NCBI GenBank assembly: GCA_014338185.1
Contig: QUBV01000019.1
Location: forward strand, 1-43,972
Source: Lysobacterales bacterium
Lineage (GTDB): Bacteria > Pseudomonadota > Gammaproteobacteria > Xanthomonadales > Rhodanobacteraceae
Reading direction: 5' to 3'
Length of the DNA stretch: 43,972 bases
The position numbers and the translations under genes are program-made. Below are positions 10,646 through 18,363 of the stretch, in pieces. Numbering within the stretch: position 1 is the stretch's first letter; each line of letters starts with the position of its first letter. The notes beneath the pieces were generated by a model, which saw only the letters and a list, made by a program, of their open reading frames with translations, ran no database searches and was not told where the DNA came from.

Positions 10646-10703
10646 CCCCCCAGCGCCCGGCCTTGCCCGGCTACCTTACAACGCCGCGGCGGCCGACGTC
10701 AGC

Positions 10704-11192
10704 TCATGGCTCATGCAGCAGTTCCATGGCCATCACGATCGCGTCCTCGCGTCCGCGCCGCGCCGGGTAGTAGTTGGGGCGGCGCCCGAACTCGTTGAAG
10801 CCGATCGACTGGTACAGGCCGATCGCGCGCGTGTTGGAAGGACGCACTTCGAGATAGATGCGCTCGACCCGCTGCCAGCGCGCCAGGTCGATCAGGCGGC
10901 GCACGATGCGCCGGCCATGGCCCTTGCCGTGCAGCAGCGGCGCCACGCACACATTGAGCACGTGAGCCTCACCCGCGGCCGCCGACAACACGCCGTAGCC
11001 GATCACCACCTGGCCATCGCCGAGCACGATGCAGTCGTAGCCCGCGCGCAGGCAGTCGGCGAAGATCGTGCGCGTCCAGGGAAATTCGTAGGCCGAAACC
11101 TCCAGCGCCGCGACCGCGTCGAGGTCCTCCGCGCGCATGCGGCGAAACTCGGTCGGCTGGGGTTTGAGGATTGCAACCACTGCGCGTGCCAC
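10704..11192 (-). CDS. rimI: Ribosomal protein bS18 alanine N-acetyltransferase
   Basis: RimI is a GNAT-fold enzyme that acetylates the N-terminal alanine of ribosomal protein S18. Family features run through the sequence: EFPWTRTIF near the N-terminus, HVLNVCVAPLLHGKGHGRRIVRRL (acetyl-CoA loop of the R/Q-x-x-G-x-G/A type), YLEVRPSNTRAIGLYQSIGF and NYYPARRGREDAIVMAMEL. The C-terminal half closely follows E. coli RimI. The start is uncertain: no ATG fits, so a GTG at 11192 (162 residues) or 11180 (158 residues) is most plausible. A GTG-opened frame to 11345 adds an Arg/Ala-rich extension without family support. It follows holD, the same pair as in E. coli. Confidence 0.9.
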   Translation of the reverse strand: MARAVVAILKPQPTEFRRMRAEDLDAVAALEVSAYEFPWTRTIFADCLRAGYDCIVLGDGQVVIGYGVLSAAAGEAHVLNVCVAPLLHGKGHGRRIVRRLIDLARWQRVERIYLEVRPSNTRAIGLYQSIGFNEFGRRPNYYPARRGREDAIVMAMELLHEP

Positions 11193-11337: not shown

Positions 11338-11769
11338 TCATGCACCAGGCATCAAGTGCGCGGCCCGCAGCTGCCGCAACAAGCGCTTGAGTTCGCCCCA
11401 CAGTGCACGCTTGGCCAGCGCATCGCCGGCCAGATGCTGCAGCGCGCCGGTGGCGACCCAGCCGATCGCCGCCTGCTGCGCCGCGTCGAGCCGCGCACCG
11501 ACCGCGCGCGCCTGCTCGGGCCCGCACACCACCAGCGCGCTGGCGCCGGCCAACTCGGCATCCTGCGCACGCGCGATGCCGGCCGCCACGCCCGCAAAGG
11601 CCAGCGTGCGCGCAAGCGCCCTCGGCAACTCGTGTTCGCACGAGTCGGCCAGCACATAAACGGCCGCGACGGCGGTGGCGCTCGCGCCGGCTGCGGGTGT
11701 CGATGCGCGCGGCAGGTACACATCGATGCCCATCTCGGCCAGCCGTCGCCGGCTGGCTTCATCCAGCAT
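11338..11769 (-). CDS. holD: Probable DNA polymerase III psi subunit (HolD-like)
   Basis: Psi bridges chi (HolC) to the tau/gamma clamp loader. The 143-residue product starts MLDEASRRRLAEMGIDVYLPR, aligning with the RRDWQLQQLGITQW opening of E. coli psi, and ends with a KRALWGELKRLLRQL helix resembling RAALWQQICTYE near the psi C-terminus. The middle is divergent and Ala-rich, as is common for this family. Immediate proximity to rimI, as in E. coli, supports the call. The ATG at 11769 overlaps the preceding lipoprotein gene by 11 bases; a second in-frame ATG at 11781 is possible. Similarity is by eye only. Confidence 0.7.
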   Translation of the reverse strand: MLDEASRRRLAEMGIDVYLPRASTPAAGASATAVAAVYVLADSCEHELPRALARTLAFAGVAAGIARAQDAELAGASALVVCGPEQARAVGARLDAAQQAAIGWVATGALQHLAGDALAKRALWGELKRLLRQLRAAHLMPGA

Positions 11770-12367
11770 CGCCGGCTCCATGACGCGCGCGCAGATCGGC
11801 CTGGAACCGCGCGAAGATGCGATCGATGGCAATGCCATAGGCATCGACCACGGCGCGGATGCTGCTGCCCGCGGCTTCCTCGTCGCGGTAGACCTCGTCC
11901 ACCAGCACCTTGCCATCCGGCGCGAGCGCGCGCAGCTTGAGCACCACCACCGCCTGCCACGCGCCATCGGTGCCGGGCACGCGGTCCATGCGCAGCAGGC
12001 TGCCACGGATGCGGATCGCCTCGCGGCTGCTCGGCAGTTCGTCGCTGACCGTGCGTGCCAGTCCCGCCTCGCGCAGCATGTGGGCCAGGCGCCGCTGCAG
12101 CATGCGCATCGGTGGGTCGGCCCACATCTGGTAGTGGTACTGGCGCAGTTCGCGCGCGTGCGGATCGAGCGCGTACACCAGCGCCTGGTCCGCATACAGC
12201 CCGTCGGCGGCGAAGGTCTCGACCACCACGGGCTCGTGCCACGGCGAGGCTTGCACCGGCAGCGGCTGCGGCGGTGGCAGCCGATGCCAGGTGAAGTCGG
12301 GTACGGTCGGTGCGGAACAACCCGCCAGTGCGAGCAGGGCGAGCCAGCCGGCCAGGCGCGCGTTCAT
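11759..12367 (-). CDS. ABC-type transport auxiliary lipoprotein (PqiC-like), MCE system
   Basis: A 202-residue lipoprotein: the signal sequence ends in the lipobox LAGC, with Cys17 the lipidation site, followed by SAPTVPDF. The rest (VVVETFAADGLYADQALVY, MLQRRLAHMLREAGL, AIRIRGSLLRMDRV, VVVLKLRAL, DGKVLVDEVYRDEEAAGSS) follows the PqiC/ABC_trans_aux family, outer-membrane lipoproteins that accompany MCE lipid transporters. Its ATG overlaps the stop of the MCE gene (ATGA), so it is part of that operon and probably the outer-membrane end of the same transport path. No MlaC-type periplasmic carrier gene is present in the operon. Confidence 0.85.
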   Translation of the reverse strand: MNARLAGWLALLALAGCSAPTVPDFTWHRLPPPQPLPVQASPWHEPVVVETFAADGLYADQALVYALDPHARELRQYHYQMWADPPMRMLQRRLAHMLREAGLARTVSDELPSSREAIRIRGSLLRMDRVPGTDGAWQAVVVLKLRALAPDGKVLVDEVYRDEEAAGSSIRAVVDAYGIAIDRIFARFQADLRARHGAGDAG

Positions 12368-13290
12368 TGTGCTTCGCCTTCGCCGGGGTCGGCCTTGGGC
12401 GCAAGGATCAGGCGATTGGGATGCATGCGGATCTCACGGCTGAACTGGTCCATGTTGCGGCTGGCCGAATCCAGGTGATGGCTGATCACGTCCATGCGGC
12501 TGGACAGCGCCTGCAGCATCGCCTTGAGGTCCTCGACCGAGTCGCGGATGTCGGTGCGATTGTCGCGCGCGATGCCCGCGATGTCGCCCAGCGCCTGGTC
12601 GAGCGTGGCGCGCGTGTGGCGCAGTTCGCTGGTGAGGTCGCGTGCCTGCGCGAGGATGCCCGCCACCGCCTTGCGGTTGTCAGGCTTGAGCACGTCGGCC
12701 AGTGCGGCCGAGGTGTCGTTGAGGCGCTGCAGCAGCTGCTGCGCCTGGTCGAGGATCGCGGGTGCATGCGAATCGAGCGTGCCGCCGATCGAGTCCACAT
12801 GCTGCGACAGCGACTTGAGCAGGGGCTGGATCTGGCTGCGGGTGAGCGCATTGATCTCCACCGCCAGGTCGTTCATCGCCACGAACATGTTGCCGCCTTC
12901 CTCACCCTGCAGTTCGCCGCCGGGCTTGAGCGCGCTGCCGCTGGCGCCTTCGAGGATGCCGACCGAGACATCGGCCAGCAGGCCGCTGGACTGCAGCCGC
13001 GCGACGCTGTCGCTCGGGATCGGCCAGTCGCGGCGAATCTGCAGCGCGACCCGGTAGCGCGTGCCCTGCGCGCCGCGTTCGGGCGTGACCGCGCCGACCT
13101 GGCCGACGCGGTAGCCCTCGTAGAACACCGGGGCGCCGTAGCGCAGGCCGGTCACGTTGCGGTAGCGCACCACGTACTCGCTGCTCGCGACCGTGCGGCC
13201 GGTGATGAGCGCGAGCGCGACCAGCAGCAGCACGGCCGCCACCAGCACCACCGCGCCGACCAGGGTGTAGTTGATGGTGTCGCGTTTCAC
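12364..13290 (-). CDS. MCE (MlaD-family) substrate-binding protein
   Basis: This 308-residue protein is anchored by one N-terminal transmembrane helix (about residues 8-30) and has an MCE domain (about 38-115: YVVRYRNVTGLRYGAPVFYEGYRVGQV, then LLADVSVGILEG). It then continues with a long, mostly helical region to the C-terminus, including LLKSLSQHVDSIGG and HTRATLDQALGDIAGIA, predicted coiled coil. MCE proteins form hexameric rings that pass phospholipids between the membranes. It is longer than MlaD of E. coli (about 183), closer to needle-forming MCE proteins. Start is GTG at 13290 with a clear GGGAGG ribosome-binding site. It follows MlaF by 52 bases and overlaps the lipoprotein gene. Confidence 0.92.
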   Translation of the reverse strand: MKRDTINYTLVGAVVLVAAVLLLVALALITGRTVASSEYVVRYRNVTGLRYGAPVFYEGYRVGQVGAVTPERGAQGTRYRVALQIRRDWPIPSDSVARLQSSGLLADVSVGILEGASGSALKPGGELQGEEGGNMFVAMNDLAVEINALTRSQIQPLLKSLSQHVDSIGGTLDSHAPAILDQAQQLLQRLNDTSAALADVLKPDNRKAVAGILAQARDLTSELRHTRATLDQALGDIAGIARDNRTDIRDSVEDLKAMLQALSSRMDVISHHLDSASRNMDQFSREIRMHPNRLILAPKADPGEGEAQ

Positions 13291-13342: not shown

Positions 13343-14143
13343 TCATGCGCGTTCCTCGGTGAGGCGCCGCAGGTAGGCCTCGGCATCGACCGGCACCTCG
13401 CGCGGACGGCGGTTGAGCAGGTCCTGGATGCGCTCGTTGTCGGCCGCGCGCACCGCCGCCACGCTGTCGGTGAGCAGCACGCGACCCTGGTCGAGCACGG
13501 TGATGGTGTCGGCGATCTTGAACGCGCTTTCGAGTTCGTGGGTGACCACCACGATGGTCATGCGCAGCGCGTCGCGCAGGCGCAGGATGAGTTCGTCCAG
13601 TTCGGCCGACACCACCGGATCGAGGCCGGCCGAAGGCTCGTCGAAGAACAGCAGGCGCGGGTCCATCACCAGCGCGCGCGCGAGCGCCGCACGCTTGACC
13701 ATGCCGCCCGAGAGCTGGCTCGGCATGAGGTCCTGGAAGCCGCCGAGGTTGACCACCTCGAGCTTGAGCCGGCTCATGATGCGGATCGTCGCCTCGTCCA
13801 GGTCGGTGTGCTCGCGCAGCGGCAGAGCGACATTGTCGCCGACGCTGAGCGAGGTCAGCAGCGCGCCGCCCTGGAACGACACGCCGATGCGCCGGCGCAC
13901 GCCGAGCAGTTCGCGTTCGCTGGCGCGCCCCAGGTCCACCCCGAACAGGCGCACGCTGCCCGCGGCCGGGCGCTGCAGCCCGAGCAGGTGGCGCAGCAGG
14001 GTCGACTTGCCCGAGCCCGAGCCGCCCATGATCACGCGGATCTCGCCCGGGCGCACCGTGAAATCGACGCCGAACAGCACCTGCCGACGGCCATACCAGG
14101 CGTCCAGACGCGTGACTTCGATCAGTGGCGCGGGCGCGTCCAT
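13343..14143 (-). CDS. mlaF: MlaF-type ABC transporter ATPase
   Basis: This is the ATPase of an MCE phospholipid transporter. The 266-residue product carries Walker A GGSGSGKST (residues 40-48), the ABC signature LSGGM (144-148), Walker B LLFFDEP (164-170), the SAGLDPV D-loop and the switch His in VVVTHE. Residues at the C-terminal end (LLNRRPREVPVDAEAYLRRL) form the short extension seen in MlaF, which contacts MlaB/partner subunits. The ATG lies one base after the MlaE stop. A STAS protein upstream would occupy the MlaB role on this ATPase. Confidence 0.94.
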   Translation of the reverse strand: MDAPAPLIEVTRLDAWYGRRQVLFGVDFTVRPGEIRVIMGGSGSGKSTLLRHLLGLQRPAAGSVRLFGVDLGRASERELLGVRRRIGVSFQGGALLTSLSVGDNVALPLREHTDLDEATIRIMSRLKLEVVNLGGFQDLMPSQLSGGMVKRAALARALVMDPRLLFFDEPSAGLDPVVSAELDELILRLRDALRMTIVVVTHELESAFKIADTITVLDQGRVLLTDSVAAVRAADNERIQDLLNRRPREVPVDAEAYLRRLTEERA

Positions 14144-14144
14144 G

Positions 14145-14942
14145 TCAGCGGTTGATGAACCAGGAAAACACCATGTCGACCACGATGATCCAGCAGATCG
14201 ACAGCACCACCGCGCGCGTGGTGGCGCGGCCCACGCCCTCGGCGCCGCCGCTCACCGAGAAGCCCGTGCTCACCCCGATCAGCGTGATCAGCACCGCGAA
14301 CACCACGCTCTTGGACAGGCCCTGCCACACGTCCCCGGGCGACAGCAGCGACAAGGTCTGCAGCAGGTAGGCGCTGGGCGTCACGTTGAGCGCGGGCGCG
14401 CTGTACAGCGCCGCGCCGACGATGGCGACCGCGTTGGCGAAGATCGTGAGCACCGGCAGCATCACCAGCATCGCCACCAGCGCGGGCGCGACGAGGTAGC
14501 GCACCGGCTCGATGCCGATCACCGCCAGCGCGTCCACCTCCTGCGACACGCTCATCGAACCGATGCGCGCGGCCAGCGCCGAACCCGAGCGCCCGGCGAC
14601 GAGGATCGCGGTGATGAGCGCGCCGAACTCGCGCGTGACCGACTTGGCCACCGCCACCACCACCTGCGACTGCGCGCCGAACTCGGCCAGCGAGGCGATG
14701 AACTGGATGCCGAGCATGAGCCCGACCGTGAAGCCGAGCAGCGCCACGATCGGCAGAGCGTCGACGCCGATCTCGCGCATCTGCTGCGCGATCGCGGCCA
14801 GCCGCACGCGCTGGCCGACACGGCGCCCGGCCACGAGGTAGTACAGCGACTCCAGCAGCAGCATCGCGGCGTAGCCCACGCCCGCCACCGCGCCGAGCGT
14901 GGTACGGCCGAGTGCATGCAGCGGCCGCGCGAGCGCGTTCAC
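14145..14942 (-). CDS. mlaE: MlaE-type ABC transporter permease
   Basis: This permease of an MCE lipid ABC transporter has 265 residues with about five to six membrane segments and the MlaE-family core: EFGALITAILVAGRSGSALAARIGSMSVSQEVDALAVIGI, followed by LVAPALVAMLVMLPVLT and C-terminal FSVSGGAEGVGRATTRAVV. Start is a GTG at 14942 overlapping the TGA of the STAS gene (GTGA). The N-terminal amphipathic stretch (LARPLHALGRTTLGAV) corresponds to the interfacial helix of MlaE. A one-base gap to mlaF indicates strict co-translation. Confidence 0.93.
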   Translation of the reverse strand: MNALARPLHALGRTTLGAVAGVGYAAMLLLESLYYLVAGRRVGQRVRLAAIAQQMREIGVDALPIVALLGFTVGLMLGIQFIASLAEFGAQSQVVVAVAKSVTREFGALITAILVAGRSGSALAARIGSMSVSQEVDALAVIGIEPVRYLVAPALVAMLVMLPVLTIFANAVAIVGAALYSAPALNVTPSAYLLQTLSLLSPGDVWQGLSKSVVFAVLITLIGVSTGFSVSGGAEGVGRATTRAVVLSICWIIVVDMVFSWFINR

Positions 14943-15283
14943 GTGGCGGCCCCGACCGCGGCGGCGCTGTCGACGATCGTGAACACGCGGTCCAGCCGCG
15001 CCAGCTCCAGCACCGCGCGCACCGCATCGCTCGGCGCCACCAGCGCGAAGCGCTGCCCGCGCGCGCGGCCCAGCTGCAGGCCCTCGACCAGCGCGGCGAT
15101 GCCCGAGGAGTCGATGTAGCCGACCCCGGCCAGGTCCACGCCCACCGGGACGCCGTCGGCAAACGCATCGAGCACCGCGCGGCGCACCTGTTGCGACCAC
15201 GACAGGTCGACTTCGCCCTGCAGGCACACGATGGTGGCGCCGTCCACGCGCTGCCGGGTCACCGCGTTGGCGTTCGCGCTCAT
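14939..15283 (-). CDS. STAS-domain protein (MlaB slot; anti-sigma-antagonist type)
   Basis: A 114-residue single STAS domain: IVCLQGEVDLSWSQQVRRAVL, VGVDLAGVGYIDSSGIAALVEGLQ, FALVAPSDAVRAVLELARLDRVF. Its position directly upstream of mlaE/mlaF is where MlaB sits in the Mla operon; MlaB binds MlaF and is needed for activity. The DSSG motif (residues 58-61) is the phosphorylation motif of SpoIIAA/RsbV-type antagonists. As I recall it, E. coli MlaB has VDTGG there. The gene overlaps the upstream GAF-SpoIIE-HATPase gene at its start (ATGA) and mlaE at its end (GTGA). Control of the transporter by phosphorylation is inferred. Confidence 0.9.
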   Translation of the reverse strand: MSANANAVTRQRVDGATIVCLQGEVDLSWSQQVRRAVLDAFADGVPVGVDLAGVGYIDSSGIAALVEGLQLGRARGQRFALVAPSDAVRAVLELARLDRVFTIVDSAAAVGAAT

Positions 15284-16998
15284 GATTCCTCCGCCTCCTC
15301 GCTGGCCCAGGCCTCGATGTGCTTGCGCAGCACCAGGCGGTTGCCGCGACCGGTCTCGGCCGGCTCGATATGCCAATCGTCCATGATCCGGTCGATCAGC
15401 GCGATTCCGAGCCCGCCGCAGCGGCACTCGCCCAGCGTACCGGGCTTGAACGTGGCCGGATCGATCGCGGGCGCCTCGTCGATGATCTCCAGCGTGAGCA
15501 TGGCCGCGCAGCGCGTGGCGCGCACTTCGAGCGGCCCCTCGCAGGCGGGACCGTAGCCGTGGCGGATCACGTTGGTGCAGGCCTCGTCGACCGCGAGCAC
15601 CAGTTCGTCGCGCAGGCGCGGCTCCAGTGCCTCGCGGTCGAACGCCGCGCGCAGCTGCGTGCGCAGGCCGCGCATCGCATCGGCACGCGCGGGCATCCGG
15701 TCACTGAACAGCAGTTGCGGCCGCTCGACCTGCGCCGCCTCGATGAGCAGGAAGGTGGTGTCGTCGACCAGGTGCAGCCGGCGCAGTTCGCCGAGCAGGC
15801 TGCGCAGGCGCGCCTTGGGCGTGGCCTGCGCGTGGCGCTGGATCAGCGCGAGCAGCCCGGCCATGCCGATCGGCTTGCCGTCGCTGCCGCGCACGTCGGT
15901 GGCGCCGTCGGAGAATGCGTACAGCGTGCCGCCGTCGAGCGCGAGCGCATGCTCGGTGAACTGCGCCTCGCGCACGATGCCCAGCGGCGGGCCGTCGGCC
16001 AGGTACTGGCGGTACTGGCCGCCGCTGTGCACGAGCACGGGCGGGAAGCCCGCGCTGGCGAAGCGCACGTGGCGCGCGGCGCGGTCGCAGTAGCCGACCA
16101 CCGCGCACACGAATCGCCCCTCGCGCGCCGAGTCGCACAGCTCCTCGTTGGCACGTGCCAGCCACGCCGCCGGGGCGAGGCGTTCCTTGCCGATCCAGCG
16201 CAACAGGCTTGCCGCGCGCATCATGAGCAGCGCCGCATCCAGGCCCTTGCCGGAAATGTCGCCGATCAGGAAGCCGATCGAACCGTCGGTCAATTCGAAA
16301 TAGTCGTAGAAGTCGCCCGACATCTCGTGCGCGGGGCGGTTCACGCCCAGTACCGGGAAGCCGTCGCGGCGACGGCGTGGCAGCAGCGACTTCTGCAGGT
16401 GTCGCGCGAGGTCCAGTTCGCGCTTGAGTCGCTGCTGTTCGAGCAGTTCGCCGGCCATGCGCGCGTTGTTGATCGCCAAGGCGGCCGGCGCGGCCACCAG
16501 CTCCAGCAGTTCGGCATCGGCCGCGGTGAAGGGCGCGCCGTCGCGGCGGTTGACGATCTCGATCACGCCGATCGGTCCGGCCGCGGTGCGCAGCGGCGCG
16601 CACACGAGGCTGCGCGTGACGAAGCCGCTGGCTTCATCCGAGCCACGCCACACGCGCGCATCGCTGCCGGCGTCGGCCACGATCTGCGTCGCGTCCTGCG
16701 CCAGCGCCTGGCCGACGATGCCCTGCCCCACCGCCAGACGCATACCGGTGACGTCGATCGGCCCCGCGCTGACCTGGCATTCGAGCACCTGGCTGGCGGG
16801 ATCGAGCAGGAACAGCGCGATGCCTTCGACTTCGAGGAAGTCGCGCACGCGGGTGATCGCCTGGGTCAGGGTCTGCCGGAGGTCGAGCGAAACGGCCAGC
16901 GAGCGCGACAGGTCGGCCAGGAACACCAGCGCGCCGGTATCGCGCCGCCGCGGCTCAACCACAGCCGTGGCGATGCGCTCCGGCTGCGGCGAGTTCAT
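15280..16998 (-). CDS. GAF-SpoIIE phosphatase-HATPase fusion regulator (RsbU/RsbW-like)
   Basis: This 572-residue soluble protein has three parts. Residues about 35-180 form a GAF sensor domain. Residues 215-420 form a PP2C-type SpoIIE phosphatase with the metal-site motifs SGDFYD (227-232), GDISGKG (246-252), SDGATD (363-368) and DDTTFLLI. Residues 445-560 form an RsbW-like HATPase_c domain with an N-box DEACTN (471-476) and a GGLG loop (528-531). A helical linker ELLEQQRLKRELDLARHLQKSLLP joins GAF to phosphatase, the usual layout for this class. Such proteins de- and re-phosphorylate STAS antagonists in partner switches. It overlaps pssA upstream and the STAS gene downstream, both by ATGA. 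No sigma factor is adjacent. Confidence 0.93.
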   Translation of the reverse strand: MNSPQPERIATAVVEPRRRDTGALVFLADLSRSLAVSLDLRQTLTQAITRVRDFLEVEGIALFLLDPASQVLECQVSAGPIDVTGMRLAVGQGIVGQALAQDATQIVADAGSDARVWRGSDEASGFVTRSLVCAPLRTAAGPIGVIEIVNRRDGAPFTAADAELLELVAAPAALAINNARMAGELLEQQRLKRELDLARHLQKSLLPRRRRDGFPVLGVNRPAHEMSGDFYDYFELTDGSIGFLIGDISGKGLDAALLMMRAASLLRWIGKERLAPAAWLARANEELCDSAREGRFVCAVVGYCDRAARHVRFASAGFPPVLVHSGGQYRQYLADGPPLGIVREAQFTEHALALDGGTLYAFSDGATDVRGSDGKPIGMAGLLALIQRHAQATPKARLRSLLGELRRLHLVDDTTFLLIEAAQVERPQLLFSDRMPARADAMRGLRTQLRAAFDREALEPRLRDELVLAVDEACTNVIRHGYGPACEGPLEVRATRCAAMLTLEIIDEAPAIDPATFKPGTLGECRCGGLGIALIDRIMDDWHIEPAETGRGNRLVLRKHIEAWASEEAEES

Positions 16999-17795
16999 GA
17001 CAGGCCTTTGCCGGTACCGCGCTGGGCCCGCTCGCTGCGCTTGCGGCGCAGGCCCCACAACGTCATCACCGGTCCCGACAGCAGGTACAGGCTCGTGATC
17101 ACGAACAGCACGCGCGCGGTATCGATCGCCAGCGCCACGAGGATCAGCATCGCCAGCGGAATCGCGATGAACGGCACGCGATCGGACAGTGGCCAGGCCT
17201 TGAAGCTGTAGTAGCGGATGCGGCTGACCATGAGCAGGCCGGCCAGCACCGCCACGATCGGGCTCACGAAGTCCATCTCGTTGACCGACAGCCCGTACAG
17301 GTTGCCGTTCTCGATCGCCCATACGAAGGACATGCACAGCCCGGCCGCGGCCGGGCTGGCCAGGCCCTGGAAGTAACGCTTGTCGGCCACCCCGACCTGG
17401 GTGTTGAAGCGCGCCAGGCGCAGCGCCGCGCAGGCCGCGTAGATGAACGCGGCCGACCAGCCGACCTTGCCCCAGCCCGGGCCATAGGCCTGCAGGTGGG
17501 TCAGTGACCAGTTGTAGAGCACGAGCGAGGGCGCGAGTCCGAAGCTGACCAGGTCCGACAGCGAGTCGTACTGCACGCCGAAATCGCTCTGGGTGCCGGT
17601 CAGGCGCGCCACGCGCCCGTCGAGGCCGTCGAGGATCGCGGCCACGAACACCGCGATCGCGGCGTCCACGTAGCGCCCGCCGATGCTGGCCACGATCGCG
17701 TAGAAGCCCGCGAACAATGCCGCCGTGGTGAACAGGTTGGGCAACAGGTAGATGCCGCGCGGGCGCTTGCGCACGGCGGCGGTTGGCGCTTCCAT
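16995..17795 (-). CDS. pssA: CDP-diacylglycerol-serine O-phosphatidyltransferase
   Basis: PssA makes phosphatidylserine from CDP-diacylglycerol and serine, the precursor of phosphatidylethanolamine. The CDP-alcohol phosphotransferase signature D-G-x2-A-R-x8-G-x3-D-x3-D is visible in DGLDGRVARLTGTQSDFGVQYDSLSD. The 266-residue membrane protein starts MEAPTAAVRKRPRGIYLLPN and has several helices, the type II bacterial Pss form. ATG at 17795; the longer frame to 18164 runs through intergenic sequence. It heads the operon that continues through the partner-switch genes into the MCE lipid transporter, linking phospholipid synthesis and transport by co-transcription. Confidence 0.93.
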   Translation of the reverse strand: MEAPTAAVRKRPRGIYLLPNLFTTAALFAGFYAIVASIGGRYVDAAIAVFVAAILDGLDGRVARLTGTQSDFGVQYDSLSDLVSFGLAPSLVLYNWSLTHLQAYGPGWGKVGWSAAFIYAACAALRLARFNTQVGVADKRYFQGLASPAAAGLCMSFVWAIENGNLYGLSVNEMDFVSPIVAVLAGLLMVSRIRYYSFKAWPLSDRVPFIAIPLAMLILVALAIDTARVLFVITSLYLLSGPVMTLWGLRRKRSERAQRGTGKGLS

Positions 17796-17943: not shown

Positions 17944-18363
17944 ATGAAAGCCATCTGCACCGCCCTGTTGTTGCTGCTCGCCGCGCCTGCGTTCGCCGGC
18001 GAGATGTACTCCTGGACCGACGCCAATGGCGTCAAGCATTTCTCCGATTCGCCGCCGCCCAAGTCGGTCAAGGCCGAACGCTTGCACGTGCGCGGCGGCG
18101 TGACCACCGCGACGCCGGCCGAGGACGAGGAGGCCGACAAGGACAAGGCGGGCGGTCCGGCCATGGCTGCGGCAGCCGGTTATTCGGCCGAGGACATCAA
18201 GCGCAATTGCAGCATCGCCAAGCAGAATCTGGCCACGATCGAGGCGAACAAGCTGCCGGTCGATGCCGAGGGTTATCCGCTGGATCTGGACGCCGCCAAG
18301 CATCGCCAGGGCCAGCTCGACAAGGCCAACCAGCAGATCAAGCTGTTCTGCACGCAGCCCTGA
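17944..18363 (+). CDS. DUF4124-domain exported protein
   Basis: A 139-residue protein with a cleavable signal peptide (MKAICTALLLLLAAPAFA-G). The mature N-terminus EMYSWTDANGVKHFSDSPPP is the DUF4124 pattern (a small periplasmic module with W-D-x-G-x-x-x-Y/F-S-D), followed by an acidic linker and a C-terminal helical part with two Cys (NCSIAK and LFCTQP), which could form a disulfide. The function of the family is unknown. It is divergent from pssA across about 150 bases and stands alone, followed by a hairpin. Confidence 0.85.
   Translation: MKAICTALLLLLAAPAFAGEMYSWTDANGVKHFSDSPPPKSVKAERLHVRGGVTTATPAEDEEADKDKAGGPAMAAAAGYSAEDIKRNCSIAKQNLATIEANKLPVDAEGYPLDLDAAKHRQGQLDKANQQIKLFCTQP

Follow-up and report, generated by a model that had tools for sequence, protein, structure and literature searches.

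The window analysed here is a stretch of 43,972 nucleotides from a Lysobacterales bacterium (contig QUBV01000019.1 of assembly GCA_014338185.1), the minus strand of which carries a run of seven genes combining a candidate regulator of STAS proteins with a transporter of the MCE type. The run starts with pssA (16995..17795), encoding a CDP-diacylglycerol-serine O-phosphatidyltransferase (TIGR00473, 111.1 bits against a cut-off of 107; CDP-OH_P_transf, 67.4 bits). It continues with a gene (15280..16998) for a 572-residue regulator composed of GAF (51.7 bits), SpoIIE/PP2C (PF07228, 130.8 bits) and HATPase_c_2 (PF13581, 89.4 bits) domains, and a gene for a 114-residue STAS protein (14939..15283; Pfam STAS, 61.1 bits; TIGR00377, 67.6 bits against a cut-off of 53.45). 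These are followed by an mlaE-type permease gene with a GTG start (14145..14942; PF02405 MlaE, 235.4 bits; TIGR00056, 208 bits, slightly below the cut-off of 212.2) and a gene for an mlaF-type ATPase, whose C-terminal extension contains YLRRLT (13343..14143; ABC_tran, 101.1 bits). The Pfam scores of the regulator domains, STAS, MlaE, ABC_tran and CDP-OH_P_transf all exceed the family cut-offs; the best NCBIfam model for the ATPase, PRK11831 (MlaF), gave 188 bits, below its cut-off of 441.

Coordinates confirm the initial annotation of these five genes as one run joined by three overlaps and a 1-base gap: ATGA at 16995-16998 (pssA/regulator), ATGA at 15280-15283 (regulator/STAS), GTGA at 14939-14942 (STAS/mlaE) and a single base, 14144, between mlaE and mlaF. 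The operon limits proposed at the time (13343-17795) were too short, as a gene for a 308-residue MCE protein of the mlaD type (12364..13290, with an assumed GTG start at 13290; PF02470, the MlaD domain, 48.2 bits) and one for a lipoprotein of the PqiC/ABC_trans_aux type (11759..12367; PF03886, 40.3 bits), which overlap by 4 bases, extend the run to 11759. Among the seven proteins, gene calls and Pfam gave no MlaC, and Pfam gave no second STAS protein and no sigma factor; a genome-wide search for a target was not made. The nearest named relative among the matches listed is a Dokdonella metagenome-assembled genome (MAG), with identities of 82% (STAS), 92% (mlaE) and 95% (mlaF) in tblastn pieces. 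A small secreted-protein gene (17944-18363) adjoins pssA divergently, and a similar divergent gene stands beside pssA in four of the seven loci read by eye (L053, L105, L113 and L093).

The regulator is a candidate bifunctional STAS kinase/phosphatase, in which Pfam showed just the three domains named above and no receiver domain. All motifs listed for it in the initial annotation (SGDFYD, GDISGKG, SDGATD, DEACTN and GGLG) are present, and the catalytic residues are kept across 81-82 aligned rows: PP2C Asp229 and Asp247 in 82/82, Asp364 and Asp413 in 81/82 (the odd row is truncated), and the HATPase Glu, Asn and Asp in 81/81. These counts exclude the paralogues L200-L203, L205, L206, L209, L211 and L212, with L205 and L209 judged by tblastn alone. 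The alignment also confirmed the DSSG motif at STAS residues 58-61, D-S-S being present in 74 of 75 rows and the remaining row being cut by a contig edge; 80 loci from named genomes, found partly with a DSSG-containing pattern, were excluded from this count. In the model of the STAS protein (mean predicted local distance difference test score, pLDDT, 95.2) Ser59 is predicted to begin a helix (59-74), and the final helix spans residues 108-112. The regulator folded alone reached a pLDDT of 38.2 and was not used for searches.

The earlier placement of the STAS protein in the MlaB position holds for its location beside mlaE and mlaF and fails for its sequence identity. It scored 23.2 bits against NF033618 (mlaB_1), below the cut-off of 90; its sequence is RsbV/SpoIIAA-like, with the DSSG motif aligning with that of SpoIIAA, and the best structural matches of the model were TM1442, RsfB, RsbV and SpoIIAA complexes. 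The parts of a partner switch are present as claimed: a PP2C domain with its metal-binding Asp residues, an HATPase_c_2 domain with the N-box Glu and Asn, and a stand-alone STAS protein of the anti-sigma-antagonist type.

We searched 250 genomes of the order for this layout, using ortholog tiers set by eye at score gaps (regulator, E ≤1e-83; MlaE, E ≤5.1e-74). The upper regulator tier held 59 orthologues including that of the window, and of the 58 other loci, all read as wide stretches, 28 are in family f9 (Marinicella) and 30 outside it. Outside f9, STAS and mlaE genes lie downstream on the same strand in 29 of 30 regulator loci, and the sole exception (L078) runs into a contig edge. Within those 29 loci, mlaF comes next in 25, and an MCE gene and lipoprotein gene follow in 19. 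Contig ends account for the missing genes at some loci, not at L055, L057, L073, L074, L110 and L093-L096; in the first five of these, all from family f4, no MCE gene or lipoprotein was matched past mlaF.

Beyond the order, 28 of 57 class-level matches were read as wide stretches (2 were already in the set and 27 were left out). HATPase and STAS were matched in 21 of these 28 regulator-like loci, with mlaE as well in 20; in the other seven neither HATPase nor STAS was matched downstream. Four new loci were read among the 19 matches at phylum level: one (L207) has the order regulator-STAS-mlaE-mlaF-mlaD, one stretch (L208) stops after STAS, and in two (L211 and L212) no STAS and no mlaE were matched. 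A scan of named genomes with the STAS alignment gave at least 538 relatives, and in the best 80 loci, which were kept, mlaE stands beside STAS in 79, HATPase in 74 and both in 73. The named loci with the layout include Rhodospirillales and Paramagnetospirillum, and the layout is found throughout Gammaproteobacteria and also in Alphaproteobacteria. Since pssA was matched upstream in 56 of these best 80 of at least 538, chiefly in records of Lysobacterales, it is a lineage-specific neighbour. Among 80 non-window regulators having an HATPase part, SpoIIE and HATPase are fused in 56 and encoded by two genes in 24. Loci L083-L086 were left out of the analysis. Together these comparisons indicate that the linkage of regulator, STAS and mlaE is not due to chance.

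Several variants were seen. At L187, read gene by gene with names given by eye, and by match pattern also at L188, L198 and L204, the regulator and STAS genes precede an mlaE that is more diverged, and mlaF is convergent; MlaD-, VacJ/MlaA- and MlaC-like genes come after the diverged mlaE of L187, and the genomes of all four loci have more STAS genes, some adjoining another MlaD/MlaC-like pair. L201 has a separate STAS-HATPase pair upstream of its GAF-SpoIIE gene, preceded by another SpoIIE match, which together form a neighbouring, different partner-switch set. The regulator at L200 (1876-3645), next to which no STAS was matched, has an HATPase remnant in which, by eye, both GGLG and the Asn of the N-box are missing, and it is a possible kinase-dead relative.

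Regulator and transporter also occur together at the level of whole genomes. Among the 250 genomes, 57 have both the regulator and this type of MlaE, 187 have neither, two have the regulator only (G073 and G172) and four have MlaE only (G123, G143, G148 and G192, all in f9). Tallied by hand by genus, 23 have both, one has the regulator only and 53 have neither. Presence is patchy in families f1 and f2, and regulator and MlaE are still concordant there. These patterns support, from genome comparison, the inheritance of the candidate kinase/phosphatase, the STAS protein and the MCE transporter as a set.

Family f9 keeps this pairing with the genes in separate loci. From its 31 genomes in the MlaE tier we took 22 MCE stretches; the STAS-mlaE-mlaF-mlaD genes stood apart from pssA-regulator in 20/20 stretches, and no STAS adjoined the pssA-regulator loci. 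Regulator and transporter loci lie on different contigs in 7 of the 16 regulator-bearing genomes. Profile searches of the SpoIIE, HATPase_c_2 and STAS families were run in 20 f9 genomes, and 16 of them have one strong SpoIIE match (E ≤1.3e-33; next best 7e-8) and one strong HATPase_c_2 match (E ≤8e-19; next best 8e-9), both being the regulator. The weaker matches fall, for SpoIIE (E ≥7e-8), in frames of 230-336 residues and, for HATPase_c_2 (E ≥8e-9), in other frames, most of them long, that are probably histidine kinases and similar proteins. The transporter STAS, in a frame of 102-144 residues, is the only short-frame STAS match, the remaining ones lying in frames of about 500-620 residues; the exceptions are one 282-residue STAS frame in G192 and the transporter STAS of G123, which is cut by a contig end. 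With one regulator and one short STAS per genome, the transporter's STAS would thus be the regulator's sole stand-alone STAS partner within the reach of these models. Read by eye, four f9 loci have no sigma-type target adjoining the regulator; the gene that follows it is peptidase-like in L053 and L113 and differs in L067 and L105. Transporter-linked STAS proteins of f9 (L161-L178) mostly have 100-103 residues (L173, 111), against 105-118 elsewhere in the order, and most end before the position of the final helix in the window protein. MlaB itself is a short STAS protein without the last strand and helix.

The source genome has three MlaE loci: that of the window; one on contig C83, a canonical mla run with mlaF, an mlaD-like gene and its own STAS_2 match (MlaB-like); and one on contig C31, a STAS-MlaE fusion (gene names at both by eye). 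The SpoIIE matches lie on C81, C71 and C64 (weak), so the window is the sole MlaE locus with an adjoining SpoIIE gene. Contig C81 (L079:6997-10273 and 10699-11076) carries a second partner-switch set: its STAS and HATPase genes are on the plus strand, a SpoIIE gene converges on them, and there is an additional HATPase_c_2 match.

On the side of the ATPase, a tyrosine followed by hydrophobic residues (Y-hydrophobic-x-x-hydrophobic, mostly YLxRLT) is found within the last 22 residues of 69/69 MlaF proteins with at least 55% identity to that of the window. The extension of Escherichia coli MlaF (Tyr261, Leu265 and Leu266) packs between MlaB and MlaF, and MlaB Thr52 is near the centre of the interface, where T52E weakens MlaB-MlaF binding (PMC7367683, available in part). 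The conserved extension is compatible with a docking mode like that of E. coli, on a comparison that did not align the two extensions residue by residue.

We propose that a partner switch independent of sigma factors gates an MCE phospholipid transporter, a reading that we hold with moderate confidence. Unphosphorylated STAS would bind in the MlaB position on the ATPase MlaF, and the STAS-bound machine of MlaF, MlaE, MCE protein and lipoprotein would assemble and work. The HATPase domain would phosphorylate Ser59, on the predicted MlaF-facing surface of the STAS protein; the phosphate would break the contact with MlaF and transport would fall, until the SpoIIE domain, under control of the GAF domain, stripped the phosphate and restored transport. 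Kinase and phosphatase would be a single polypeptide in the window and the products of two adjacent genes in other lineages. We infer the phosphorylation, the binding to MlaF, the GAF domain as input and the on/off direction, the last by analogy with E. coli T52E. That STAS is the substrate and the transporter the output, with no sigma factor involved, is likely in view of the co-inheritance, the invariant signatures and the transporter STAS being the sole short STAS frame in f9. The idea of such a switch came with the initial annotation; the inherited linkage, the signatures and the f9 pairing speak for it, and the transporter type and the identity of the STAS protein have been corrected. We also lean, somewhat cautiously, towards a widespread proteobacterial layer of control in which a sensor kinase/phosphatase toggles the STAS subunit of an MCE lipid transporter; partner switching, familiar chiefly from the control of transcription, would then gate an ATP-binding cassette (ABC) transporter directly.

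A number of observations weigh against the proposed switch. The Fisher test for co-occurrence of regulator and MlaE (p ~7e-49) ignores shared ancestry, and its p is too small. The regulator and transporter loci share a contig, 53-58 kb apart, in 9 of the 16 f9 genomes that have the regulator. The flank of pssA-regulator-STAS-mlaE in L093-L096 gave no match to mlaF, an MCE gene or a lipoprotein, and L199 and L290 have HATPase-STAS without mlaE. PF01740 can miss MlaB-like STAS proteins; PF13466, which covered three f9 genomes, gave no additional short frame. The window STAS model fits several RsbV, SpoIIAA and RsfB structures best, and other SpoIIAA entries score no higher than MlaB against it. 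D-S-A also occurs at the Ser site of MlaB-like proteins near which, over the 1.5 kb read, there is no kinase, so conservation of the Ser by itself proves nothing. Two further points fit a STAS protein that is a constitutive, MlaB-like assembly factor with a structural or catalytic Ser59, the kinase/phosphatase acting elsewhere or only marginally on it. E. coli MlaB T52A keeps MlaF binding and abolishes ATPase activity (PMC5016091), so that the Ser/Thr residue may have a role other than phosphorylation, and no kinase is known for this required Thr52 in the available parts of PMC7367683 and PMC5016091. Moreover, no strong SpoIIE or HATPase_c_2 match was found in four f9 MAGs (G123, G143, G148 and G192) that retain the STAS-MCE run, which may reflect loss or an assembly gap. 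We regard a constitutive factor as unlikely, for it leaves the near-exclusive co-inheritance of regulator and transporter and the f9 pairing unexplained.

Information might also flow in reverse, with the transporter as sensor: STAS binding to or leaving MlaF would report the state of transport to the HATPase protein, which would act in turn on some other target, for instance a sigma factor or a further regulator. HATPase_c_2 proteins serve as anti-sigma factors elsewhere, the STAS sequence is RsbV/SpoIIAA-like, and in f9 the STAS gene stays beside those of the transporter, apart from the kinase. In the four f9 loci read, however, the regulator has no sigma-type neighbour, and the GAF sensor on the enzyme suggests that the input is there, which makes this direction decidedly unlikely in our judgement. 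Very improbable, finally, is a conventional switch controlling transcription, placed in the operon for co-expression only, whose STAS protein never contacts MlaF. The scores of the STAS protein, above the cut-off of the anti-sigma-antagonist model TIGR00377 and below that of mlaB_1, and its top structural matches, which are anti-sigma antagonists, would agree with it; the f9 STAS gene nevertheless sits with mlaE-mlaF-mlaD away from the kinase, the MlaF extension is conserved, and the window run encodes no other STAS, though the mla run on C83 has an MlaB-like one.

If the proposed switch is real, a cytosolic signal could switch outer-membrane lipid traffic post-translationally, and the range of STAS partner switching would then include an ABC transporter under its direct control. 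The locus offers candidates for both the kinase and the phosphatase, along with the STAS protein and transporter that go with them. As the layout recurs, also in cultured species (Rudaea cellulosilytica, Tahibacter aquaticus, Aquimonas voraii and Marinicella marina), it makes the control of MCE transporters directly testable.

The regulator and STAS protein are like RsbU/RsbW/RsbV and SpoIIE/SpoIIAB/SpoIIAA of Bacillus in having a PP2C phosphatase, an HATPase_c_2 kinase and a STAS protein with D-S-[ST]-G. The output of the Bacillus switches is a sigma factor, whereas the linked genes here are those of a lipid transporter. A precedent by analogy is SypE of Vibrio fischeri, a serine kinase and phosphatase acting on the stand-alone STAS protein SypA, which is active when unphosphorylated (PMC4517449, PMC8256260, both available in part). 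Kinase and phosphatase domains are again united in one protein, and the target of SypA is no known sigma factor; unlike the GAF protein of the window, SypE is a response regulator, and SypA controls biofilm formation by a mechanism called unknown, with no transporter named for it in the available parts of these papers.

The description of the run as an MCE phospholipid-transport operon stands as regards the MCE transporter and not as regards a classical MlaFEDCB set. With E. coli MlaFEDB it shares the MlaE permease, MlaF with its C-terminal extension, an MCE protein and a small STAS protein with Ser/Thr at the same place (PMC7367683, PMC5016091); it differs in its longer, RsbV/SpoIIAA-like STAS protein, the dedicated GAF-PP2C-kinase, the PqiC-type lipoprotein and the lack of MlaC in the run. 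By gene content the transporter resembles Mpc, the chimeric Mla-Pqi system of Brucella abortus, which has an MlaE-type permease, an MlaF-type ATPase, a long MCE protein, a PqiC-type lipoprotein and, in the accessible text, no MlaC. The STAS domain of Mpc is fused to the permease (PMC12436622), whereas that of the window is a separate gene joined by the GTGA overlap, with its own candidate kinase/phosphatase.

In the vicinity of mce genes, Casali and Riley (2007) noted both STAS genes and fusions of STAS with permeases; 'phosphatase' and 'SpoIIE' are absent from the main text as available (PMC1810536). No paper with both MlaE and SpoIIE, or both MlaF and RsbW, was found in the mostly non-subscription literature searched, and none among the matches listed joins partner switching with an MCE transporter, subscription literature lying mostly outside the search. 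The initial annotation considered such regulation to be new. Phosphorylation of MlaB had in fact been proposed by Thong (2016; PMC5016091) and Kolich (2020; PMC7367683), in the parts available with no enzyme known and in the latter with the statement that it remains to be determined; the same paper names the regulation of the active MlaB level as an open question. The new element is a candidate dedicated enzyme: each part is known by itself, and the novelty lies in combining them into a transporter switch.

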